In this document: positions 20,585 through 22,941 of the stretch, one piece after another
Position numbering within the stretch: position 1 is the stretch's first letter
How the letters are laid out: each line of letters starts with the position of its first letter
NCBI RefSeq assembly: GCF_013752535.1
Contig: NZ_CP058348.1
Span: 1,798,001-1,862,000 of the forward strand
Origin: Bdellovibrio sp. KM01
Lineage (GTDB): Bacteria; Bdellovibrionota; Bdellovibrionia; Bdellovibrionales; Bdellovibrionaceae
Direction of reading: 5' to 3'
Length of the DNA: 64,000 bases
Position numbers and translations under genes: made by a program
The notes under the pieces: model-generated
Database searches by the model: none
Seen by the model: only the letters and a program-made list of their open reading frames with translations
What the model was told of the DNA's origin: nothing

Positions 20585-20902
20585 TTATTTGTCTGTTGGA
20601 TTCACTAGCTTTTGTTCCAAAATAATATCTTCGGGCTTTTTAGTGTCGCCCACTAGATCTTTATGGAGTTGGACCGCGATCTCTCTTAGATGCTGTTCTA
20701 AAACGACGTTAAAGATTGTCTCTTCAGGAATTTGAAAAAGCTTAGCAAGATCTTTTAACACAGGAATTGGCGGTTGAGATTTGTCACGTTCCCAGTTCGA
20801 GATGAACTGTCCATTTTTATAACCCAAATAGTCCGCAACATCTTTTTGAGACAACCCTCTGACTTTTCTACAATGTGCGAGGAAACCACCGCAGGTAACC
20901 AT
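20585..20902 (-). CDS. XRE-family transcriptional regulator
   Basis: 105 residues from the ATG at 20902, which has AGGGG 7 bases upstream; an ATG at 20920 and the frame beyond lack a ribosome site. A helix-turn-helix covers residues 6-60: FLAHCRKVRGLSQKDVADYL, then YKNGQFISNWERDKSQPP. The helical C-terminal part (VLEQHLREIAVQLHKDL) may mediate dimer formation. The gene is divergent from the acyltransferase-like gene, with 101 bases between the starts, so control of that operon and of itself is the natural inference. No small-molecule binding domain is present. Confidence 0.85.
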   Translation of the reverse strand: MVTCGGFLAHCRKVRGLSQKDVADYLGYKNGQFISNWERDKSQPPIPVLKDLAKLFQIPEETIFNVVLEQHLREIAVQLHKDLVGDTKKPEDIILEQKLVNPTDK

Positions 20903-21003
20903 AAAAAAACCCCTAAACATTATTCTGTTATTTACCGAAATATCACCGTACCGAAGTTTATACAAACTAAAACATGTTTGAGCAAAATACTTAGAGGAAT
21001 TAC

Positions 21004-21654
21004 ATGAACTTTTCGTATCGTCTCATCTATACGCTCGGATCAAAAACTCAACAAGAAATCGACTATGTTAATAAGTGTTTTCGTCTCTGGTCTGAAGAGT
21101 TTGGTGCGGATTTAGCCTCTCGTGGCGCCAAATTGAACCATGATGAGTTTCAGCGTGCTCGAGTGATCGCTGTCATTTGTAAGGATGACGAAGTAGTTGG
21201 GTTTCATCTGTATTCTCCCTTCGATTTGCGCGAACACAGTAGCTGCGAACATTCCTACATTCGTGCAATCCCAGATGACGTAAAAGTAAAACTAAGAGAA
21301 CACCAAATTAATTCATTCATGGCTATGGAGTACTTGACAGTGGCTCCCGCATTCCGATCGCGAGAGGCGGGTGGGCCCAAAGTTGCGGAGCTCATCATTC
21401 GCCTGGGGCTTAAAGTAATGCATGAGCTTGGAGTCGATGCCGCCGTAGGAATCGCACGAGTGGATCGCAAAGTGAATTTTCTGGGCGAAATCATCGGTTT
21501 CTCCGAGTTCGCCCAAATCACAAAATACAATAATCAATGTGCTTTTATGGTTTTCGGTAAGCAAAACCAACTCATCGAATCTGATGAGTTTACCAGAAGA
21601 ACCGTCGAAGCACTTTGGACCGAAAAATATCAACCAAGAAAAATGGCAGCCTAA
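21004..21654 (+). CDS. GNAT-fold acyltransferase-like protein (FeeM / acyl-homoserine-lactone-synthase-like)
   Basis: 216 residues. The layout resembles FeeM-type N-acyl amino acid synthases and LuxI-type enzymes more than ordinary acetyltransferases: an N-terminal helix with Arg, Trp and Phe (FRLWSEEFG), a DEF-x3-R core (LNHDEFQRARVIAVICKDDE then VVGFHLYSPF), the beta4 strand MEYLTVAPAFRSRE where the acyl-carrier cleft would lie, and a C-terminal VGIARVDRKVNFLGEIIGF. Such enzymes join an acyl chain from acyl-ACP or acyl-CoA to an amine. The ATG follows a weak GAGG (10 bases). The diiron oxidase gene begins 12 bases after the stop with AAGGAG. Family placement is by pattern, not by search. 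Confidence 0.62.
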   Translation: MNFSYRLIYTLGSKTQQEIDYVNKCFRLWSEEFGADLASRGAKLNHDEFQRARVIAVICKDDEVVGFHLYSPFDLREHSSCEHSYIRAIPDDVKVKLREHQINSFMAMEYLTVAPAFRSREAGGPKVAELIIRLGLKVMHELGVDAAVGIARVDRKVNFLGEIIGFSEFAQITKYNNQCAFMVFGKQNQLIESDEFTRRTVEALWTEKYQPRKMAA

Positions 21655-21665
21655 AAGGAGAACGT

Positions 21666-22289
21666 ATGAAATCAAACGAGTTTAATGAAAAAGCCCACGC
21701 AAAAGTAAATGAGCTTTGCAAAACTATCGAAGCGCTTCCCTGGGAAAACGTCAGATTTTATAATTCCTGGTGCGCGCAAACTCACAATTTCGTGGGACAC
21801 ACATCGATCTTTCTAAATCTTTGCAATGAAAGACTGCCAAAGGATCATCCTTTGAAAGCTCAATTCGAACATCATATCGAAGAAGAGGTCGGTCATGAAA
21901 AGATGAGCGAAAATGATCTAAAATTCATGCATGCAGAAGGCACGAAAGTATTTGAGGTCACAAAAGCTTTTTGGAAAACTCAATACTACTGGATTAAAGA
22001 AGTCGGCCCAACGGCCCACTTGGGTTACTCGCTTTTGTTGGAAGGCTTAGCAGCTAAATCCGGTCCAGGAATTTTAAAGCGTGTTAAAGCCGCGGGTATC
22101 CAAGGTTACACCTTCCTTAAAGTCCACGCAGAAGAGGACACAGAACATTTCAATGATGCATTAAAAGCCGTTGCAAAAGTTTCTGATAAAGAGCGCGAGC
22201 ACATTTATCAAAATCTTTGTGAAGGTATGGATATGTATCTCAGAATTATGAATGAATGTGTGCGTGAGTCAGTGCAGTTAGCATCGTAA
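21666..22289 (+). CDS. Haem-oxygenase-like diiron oxidase (HDO superfamily)
   Basis: 207 residues from the ATG at 21666 (AAGGAG 7 bases upstream). Predicted all-helical with the third-helix metal signature of HDO enzymes, H-x3-D-x2-H, at His154, Asp158, His161 (KVHAEEDTEHF). A second cluster at residues 68-78 (FEHHIEEEVGHEK) supplies Glu and His ligands. HDO enzymes such as UndA, BesC and the central domain of SznF use two irons and O2 to desaturate, cleave or N-oxygenate small molecules. A TenA-like role without iron is less likely given the ligands. It follows the acyltransferase-like gene in one operon; its 3' end overlaps a convergent gene by 44 bases. Confidence 0.72.
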   Translation: MKSNEFNEKAHAKVNELCKTIEALPWENVRFYNSWCAQTHNFVGHTSIFLNLCNERLPKDHPLKAQFEHHIEEEVGHEKMSENDLKFMHAEGTKVFEVTKAFWKTQYYWIKEVGPTAHLGYSLLLEGLAAKSGPGILKRVKAAGIQGYTFLKVHAEEDTEHFNDALKAVAKVSDKEREHIYQNLCEGMDMYLRIMNECVRESVQLAS

Positions 22290-22941
22290 AACGCTCCAGT
22301 GCTGCAACGCCAACAATCGTGTCCCCTGCATTGACGGGGGACATGAGTTTGATTTCCACGTCAGATTCATAACGTCCTTGGGAGCGAATTTCTTTTACCT
22401 TATGGACAGGCAGCCCCGGAGGGAATGGTTTTTTGTTCAAACCCATAAAAGTCGCATAAGCCATTTTTTGAATCTTAGCCGAGATGTCAGTGTCACGGTC
22501 GTAAAGATTCCACCACTGTTTTGAAAACATCACGTCAGGCGCATAGGAAGAATAATCAAAAAGTTCCGGATTAAAGAACAAACGCTTGGAATCGCTTCCG
22601 TAAATTTCAACGATGTCGCCATCCTGAATTTGTTCAATAAAGGCCGCAGGAATTGTGACATTCAATCGCGACAGATAATAGCGAACCAGGTCCTTGGTGT
22701 TCTTCGGATTGCCGTTATGGGCAACGAAGTCCAGCATCAGATGGGACCATCTACGTATACCATCCAAGAGGCTGAGTTTTTCATTTTCACTTAAAGAAAA
22801 GAAATGATCATCGAAACGATAGGAAAGGTAAACGCGTCCTGTAGCTTTCAGGGCGTCTCGCAAAAGCAGTCTTGCCGCCGCATACTGTTCAGTCATACTC
22901 GGCTCTTGGTGTTCAAGGTTCGCAACTTGTTCCAATTCCAT
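22246..22941 (-). CDS. Protein of unknown function, convergent with the diiron oxidase
   Basis: 231 residues, no signal peptide and no membrane segment. Aromatic-rich stretches (YLSYRFDDHFFSLSENE, SYAPDVMFSKQWWNLYDRD) are visible. The C-terminal GDTIVGVAALERFTMLTALTH might be a small binding fold. I do not recognise the family. The start at 22941 has no clear Shine-Dalgarno site; Met16 at 22896 is an alternative. The last 44 bases are antisense to the end of the oxidase gene, so the two mRNAs are complementary at their 3' ends. It may belong to the same pathway. Confidence 0.6.
   Translation of the reverse strand: MELEQVANLEHQEPSMTEQYAAARLLLRDALKATGRVYLSYRFDDHFFSLSENEKLSLLDGIRRWSHLMLDFVAHNGNPKNTKDLVRYYLSRLNVTIPAAFIEQIQDGDIVEIYGSDSKRLFFNPELFDYSSYAPDVMFSKQWWNLYDRDTDISAKIQKMAYATFMGLNKKPFPPGLPVHKVKEIRSQGRYESDVEIKLMSPVNAGDTIVGVAALERFTMLTALTHAHIHS

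Follow-up and report, generated by a model that had tools for sequence, protein, structure and literature searches.

Bdellovibrio sp. KM01 carries a conserved gene module that encodes a probable N-acyltransferase of the GNAT fold, a haem-oxygenase-like dimetal oxidase (HDO), a PAS-domain protein and an XRE-family regulator. The acyltransferase and the oxidase are very likely coupled in function, as their gene order, their co-occurrence and two natural fusions argue. N-acylation followed by oxidation is the chemistry that we somewhat favor. The complete model, in which short-lived enzymes make an oxidized N-acyl compound in two steps while the PAS protein and the XRE regulator do the sensing, seems to us about evenly poised between right and wrong.

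We analyzed a window of 64,000 nucleotides from the KM01 genome (3.96 Mb in a single contig). The module consists of the following features:

20585–20902, minus strand: XRE-family (HTH_3) regulator, 105 aa, with its ATG at 20902 (HTH_3 E 2.8e-10)
20903–21003, no strand: divergent intergenic region, 101 bases
21004–21654, plus strand: GNAT-fold probable N-acyltransferase, 216 aa (P0001), from its predicted structure and conserved family
21637–21651, plus strand: SsrA-like C-terminal tail RKMAA of the GNAT, from tail statistics, the end of the structural model (pLDDT 57) and the genome's own tmRNA tag
21666–22289, plus strand: HDO, haem-oxygenase-like dimetal oxidase, 207 aa (P0004), ending in VQLAS (PF14518 above cut-off)
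21885–22148, plus strand: six proposed metal ligands of the HDO, from invariant columns and the match to MboA
22246–22941, minus strand: PAS-domain protein with N-terminal helices, 231 aa (P0003), from its predicted structure and recurrence

The preliminary description of the locus gave coordinates, lengths and motifs that all proved right when we re-read the sequence. The start codons of the divergent XRE (20902, minus) and GNAT (21004, plus) genes are separated by 101 bases; the XRE gene has an alternative TTG start at 20965. The HDO gene follows the GNAT gene and starts 11 bases past the GNAT stop. Ribosome sites precede both ATG codons, AAAGGAG for the HDO and AGAGGA for the GNAT. FRLWSEEF, DEFQRAR and MEYLTVAPAFR are found in the GNAT, and H154-x3-D158-x2-H161 in the HDO. 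The P0003 gene is convergent with the HDO gene and overlaps its end by 44 bases. All four protein families are conserved in other genomes; hence the four open reading frames are not chance.

The same description read the locus as a LuxI- or FeeM-like acyltransferase with a diiron oxidase. Three parts of this reading stand: the conservation of the pair, the ligand set of the HDO and the fold likeness of the GNAT. An assignment of the GNAT to the LuxI or FeeM families by sequence is not supported. New relative to it are the PAS fold, the C-terminal tails common to both enzymes, the fusions, two further GNAT-HDO pairs elsewhere in the KM01 genome and the pairs of FeeM and HDO genes described below. 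Structure prediction covered the GNAT and the PAS protein; the account of the HDO comes from alignment only.

To describe the distribution of the module, profiles of three families (GNAT, HDO and P0003) were run over 141 genomes of the order. An HDO gene lies within 1.6 kb of 96 of the 122 GNAT genes, and 96 of the 108 HDO genes have a GNAT gene beside them. The pair is therefore found beyond KM01. The HDO gene is usually downstream on the same strand (83 pairs); it is upstream in 8 pairs and on the opposite strand in 5. No HDO accompanies the other 26 of the 122 GNATs. Single-sequence queries place an HDO within 3 kb at 76 of 96 GNAT places in the order. At two loci, GNAT and HDO form one open frame (L102, 455 aa, whose contig also appears as fusion locus L070, and L195, 458 aa). 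Two additional pairs are located in the KM01 genome itself, one at 3.331 Mb and the other at 2.075 Mb.

Across the phylum, this HDO is carried by 144 of 369 genomes and 71 of 182 genera (E <= 1e-20). When contigs were scanned with an alignment of eight HDO sequences, the relatives of the locus in named records came from Bdellovibrio and other Bdellovibrionota. Outside the phylum, an isolate, Methylocystis sp. Sn-Cys (L106), has the pair, as does a metagenome-assembled genome with the label Methylocystis (L103). An HDO relative without the GNAT is present in Vibrio sinensis and in some actinobacteria. Viral contigs scanned with the HDO gave no relatives, and none was found in phages. Genes further out differ between many loci, and hence the module itself is what is kept. 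Separately, a plasmid of Bdellovibrio sp. HM001 encodes a GNAT relative with 36.6% identity (AP029175.1, 159856–160425), so the GNAT family can be plasmid-borne.

The HDO matches PF14518 at E 1.1e-7 (32.2 bits, cut-off 28.9), and all 32 aligned relatives match it at E <= 0.1. Searched against solved proteins, the HDO profile matches 3dde at E 1.6e-18 and MboA at E 7e-8. Ten columns are invariant in the 32 sequences: Y32, E74, H77, D84, G120, E126, H154, D158, H161 and Y191. They include the six proposed ligands E74 (21885), H77 (21894), E126 (22041), H154 (22125), D158 (22137) and H161 (22146). The metal ligands of MboA are Glu86, His89, Glu143, His172, Asp176 and His181 (PMC13185094). The first five fall in one register on E74, H77, E126, H154 and D158, and the profile alignment brings H181 to H161 with a two-residue shift. 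MboA, 3dde and our HDO have in common the pattern E-x2-H, E, H-x3-D, whereas the end of the motif reads H-x3-D-x4-H in MboA and H-x3-D-x2-H here. By its sequence, then, the predicted six-ligand site is complete. Tyr82 of MboA, whose distance from the substrate would allow it to serve as a base, has a nearly invariant His70 at its position in the HDO.

By sequence, the protein is an HDO and thus a probable dimetal oxidase with a predicted iron site. Characterized HDOs act mostly on fatty or amino acids, which they desaturate, cleave at C-C bonds, N-oxygenate or rearrange (PMC13108848). This HDO and MboA differ in their gene partners, a probable N-acyltransferase here and peptide ligases for MboA.

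The gene on the far side of the HDO had been suggested to take part in the pathway, and this suggestion is now well supported: P0003 is a PAS-domain protein that recurs beside GNAT-HDO pairs. Its AlphaFold model (pLDDT 90.5, pTM 0.85) has N-terminal helices and then a PAS domain. Foldseek matches the model to the PAS domains of NifL (E 1.9e-4) and ARNT, both with probability 1.00, and comparison with DsLOV gives a Z of 8.2 over 114 residues. At the sequence level P0003 belongs to no Pfam family, the Pfam PAS models match just two of its relatives and these weakly, and sequence and profile searches of the PDB return nothing meaningful. No DNA-binding domain is recognized in the protein.

Among the 141 genomes, GNAT, HDO and a P0003 relative lie within 2.5 kb in at least 58 places, and a GNAT and a P0003 relative occur together with no HDO in at least 10. 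The pair at 3.33 Mb in the KM01 genome has no adjoining PAS gene. Other P0003 relatives are found away from the enzymes, alone or as tandem pairs and triplets (L185, L186, L190, L192, L193). A single genome has up to eight matches to the P0003 family. In one locus (L119, 4678–5220, minus strand; also L072), the PAS gene beside the GNAT-HDO pair is split into frames of 106 and 74 aa and looks broken.

The XRE protein scores 40.5 bits against HTH_3 (cut-off 23), and a gene matching the XRE profile lies within 3 kb of 30 of the 67 GNAT genes examined. A PAS gene and an XRE gene often adjoin each other with the same orientation, and either may come first (L104, L112, L123, L196, L198). The divergent intergenic region (20903–21003) contains candidate sites, TAAACA on the left and the inverted ACATGTTT (TGTTT-type) on the right, that are kept in five relatives (L061–L065). 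These elements are possibly an operator, although the indication is weak. A promoter scan is uninformative, with 6 found where 4.8 are expected. Taken together, the PAS protein and the XRE regulator likely form a sensing and control unit. That the PAS protein senses the product of its own pathway is a tentative idea, which we would rather doubt than assert.

PAS domains are also known to sense oxygen, redox state and light. The same two enzymatic steps might end in a product that is not a signal, such as a lipid that acts on membranes, a weapon or a metabolite for internal use. The PAS protein and the XRE regulator would then read oxygen, redox or flavin state and time the O2-dependent enzyme. 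This would fit the FAD-containing NifL PAS and the LOV domains among the closest matches of P0003, the O2 requirement of the HDO and the lipids, such as tyrazolones, that related N-acyl pathways yield (PMC10404671). It fits less well with the places where GNAT and PAS genes occur without an HDO, and with the single PAS relatives in places without either enzyme. We consider this reading as a whole somewhat unlikely.

The acyl transfer step draws on the predicted structure of the GNAT (pLDDT 93.4, pTM 0.90). Compared with the acyl-homoserine lactone (AHL) synthases, the model aligns over 194 residues with RpaI (Z 16.1) and over 188 with BjaI (Z 15.9). The RpaI and BjaI alignments cover 188–194 of the 216 residues, with Z values ranging from 15.4 to 16.1. 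FeeM aligns over 172 residues (Z 15.2). Plain GNATs reach equal Z, over about 135–170 residues. SbzI and BjaI take the first places in Foldseek; for SbzI there is also a solved complex with a carrier protein. The likeness to FeeM and LuxI lies in the predicted fold, over nearly the full length.

It does not hold for sequence families. PF13444 is not among the families listed for the GNAT; neither is PF21926 (FeeM), nor PF00765 (LuxI) up to E 5. The best Pfam match is PF00583, at E 0.11 and below the cut-off. PF00765 has no match in the four genomes of the genus that were searched, KM01 (G000), G017, G014 and G023, in a search in which two other genomes were positive. PF21926 has no match in the KM01 genome at E <= 0.001, whereas 74 of 140 genomes have one above the cut-off. 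Comparison of the GNAT and FeeM profiles gives a probability of only 9%, although it places MEYLTVAPAFR on the matching FeeM strand. Single-sequence and profile searches of the PDB with the GNAT find nothing meaningful. Neither P0001 nor P0003 reaches a Pfam or NCBIfam cut-off, and scanning all aligned relatives yields no family for either. The sequence thus does not support placing the GNAT within either family, LuxI or FeeM; judging from the model, the enzyme plausibly works like a LuxI or FeeM enzyme. Lacking a PF00765 match and LuxI motifs, the GNAT is rejected as an AHL synthase.

FeeM genes provide a second line of evidence. At five loci (L172–L176, that is G073:C21, G071:C144, G039:C9, G110:C79 and G118:C126), more distant HDO relatives converge with Pfam-FeeM genes of about 460–490 aa or adjoin them, a second arrangement of this kind in Bdellovibrionales. 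These HDOs have no alanine tail. HDOs of this kind therefore neighbor two kinds of N-acyltransferase, which points towards N-acyl substrates. Many genomes of the order, for example G101 and G108, hold several PF21926 genes each, of about 400–450 aa, with up to ten matches in a genome.

Both the equal Z of plain GNATs and the weak PF00583 match would suit an ordinary acetyltransferase that modifies a small amine or a protein. The HDO would then act elsewhere, as a stress oxidase like DtpC or as a self-sacrificing enzyme like CADD, and the two would merely be co-regulated. CADD is indeed the best NCBIfam match of the HDO, albeit a very weak one (E 0.0038), and an Acinetobacter HDO protects against desiccation stress (PMC13232832). 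However, the fusions and the tight adjacency favor a shared substrate or product, the longer body of the modelled GNAT and its full-length match resemble LuxI-type enzymes, and FeeM genes too adjoin HDO relatives. We consider this second reading improbable. The third reading, a GNAT toxin with an XRE antitoxin, is suggested by the adjoining XRE gene and the weak HMM resemblance of its product to antitoxin HTH families, but it is almost certainly wrong and we reject it, because the XRE gene is divergent rather than co-transcribed and lies near fewer than half of the GNAT genes, while the HDO and the PAS protein are the partners that stay constant. We know of no oxidase partner for GNAT toxins, which acetylate tRNA and have RHH antitoxins.

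The two enzyme families of the operon also have similar C-termini. Their members tend to finish in Ala or Ala-Ala, behind a linker whose length varies. Among sequences below 60% identity, a C-terminal alanine is present in 37 of 50 GNATs and in 35 of 54 HDOs, while the other proteins encoded at these loci have it in 43 of 573 cases. Fisher tests give P values of 1.9e-26 (GNAT) and 2.7e-22 (HDO), which ignore the shared ancestry that remains. PAS proteins (5/64) and XRE proteins (4/28) have no such preference. All four alanine codons and all three stop codons occur, which places the selection at the protein level. The GNAT of the window ends in KMAA, within the low-confidence tail of its model, and so carries the SsrA-like Ala-Ala. 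The HDO ends in LAS, and for HDOs the Ala-Ala ending holds for the family and not for this member. The tmRNA tag of KM01 ends in GNDYALAA, and Ala-Ala is the main determinant for recognition by ClpXP (PMC7652416).

The tail is probably a built-in degron, as far as sequences can tell. This reading rests more on two unrelated families in one operon sharing the tail than on the Fisher values. We also considered that the tails dock GNAT and HDO to each other. Docking is unlikely because GNATs without an HDO retain the tail.

These observations suggest the following mechanism. The GNAT would transfer the acyl group of an acyl-CoA or acyl-ACP onto a small-molecule amine, most likely that of an amino acid; we infer this step from the LuxI/FeeM-like predicted fold and from the FeeM genes beside HDO relatives. 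The HDO, with its six-ligand set, would then use O2 to oxidize the N-acyl product, for example by desaturation, hydroxylation, N-oxygenation or decarboxylation. The product is probably an acyl amide, a chemistry read entirely from fold and context. ClpXP or ClpAP would probably clear both enzymes quickly, so that the product would appear in pulses. The PAS protein may bind the product itself, like the receptor in LuxI/LuxR systems.

Several observations count against this mechanism. They are the GNATs without an HDO, the XRE gene near under half of the GNATs examined, the 3.33-Mb pair without a PAS gene and the other cues that PAS domains read. The GNAT belongs to neither PF00765 nor PF21926, plain GNATs equal it on Z, and the FeeM profile probability is low. 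Finally, the HDO in the window ends in -AS instead of -AA.

Known systems share parts of this arrangement. The acyl-oxazolone pathways tyzABC of M. tuberculosis and oxzAB of Pseudoalteromonas rubra consist of an N-acyltransferase and a flavin oxidase (PMC10404671). As proposed for our locus, the N-acyltransferase acts on an amino acid and a neighboring O2-dependent oxidase modifies the N-acyl product. Their oxidase, however, is a flavin enzyme of the nitroreductase superfamily that comes with a ThiF-like cyclase (PMC10404671), in contrast to the HDO here; no ThiF gene is seen at the locus, which has PAS and XRE partners instead. The pathways for stieleriacine and thalassotalic acid, which are N-acyl dehydrotyrosines, also pair an N-acyl amino acid synthase with a neighboring oxidative enzyme (PMC12479983). 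In the passages found, the conserved oxidative enzyme is a nitroreductase and HDOs are not mentioned.

LuxI/LuxR systems, represented by BjaI and RpaI, offer the closest full-length fold to the GNAT. They too place a synthase gene beside a sensor of the ligand-binding type and have solo sensors elsewhere, which the PAS relatives away from the enzymes resemble. They differ in that our locus lacks the LuxI family match and motifs, has an added oxidase, and divides its control between a PAS protein without a recognized DNA-binding domain and an XRE regulator. FeeM resembles the GNAT in fold and in having HDO relatives next to its genes, and differs by its sequence profile.

In the searchable literature we found no endogenous small-molecule signal of Bdellovibrio-type predators, and a literature search found no description of an HDO paired with an N-acyltransferase. 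The module joins predicted HDO chemistry to a probable N-acyltransferase, and two unrelated enzymes of one operon have a common, conserved tail of the degradation type. The finding holds up, and it gains interest over the first description because the module is conserved, includes a probable sensor and has paired tails. A signalling role is only inferred. It would amount to a new form of cell-cell or life-cycle signalling in predators, in which an HDO-oxidized N-acyl compound, pulsed by degrons, is read by PAS proteins, some of them solos, through XRE regulators; this we think unlikely as it stands. The module, with its probable synthase and oxidase and its probable sensor and regulator, is conserved and offers a concrete candidate for deletion and profiling.
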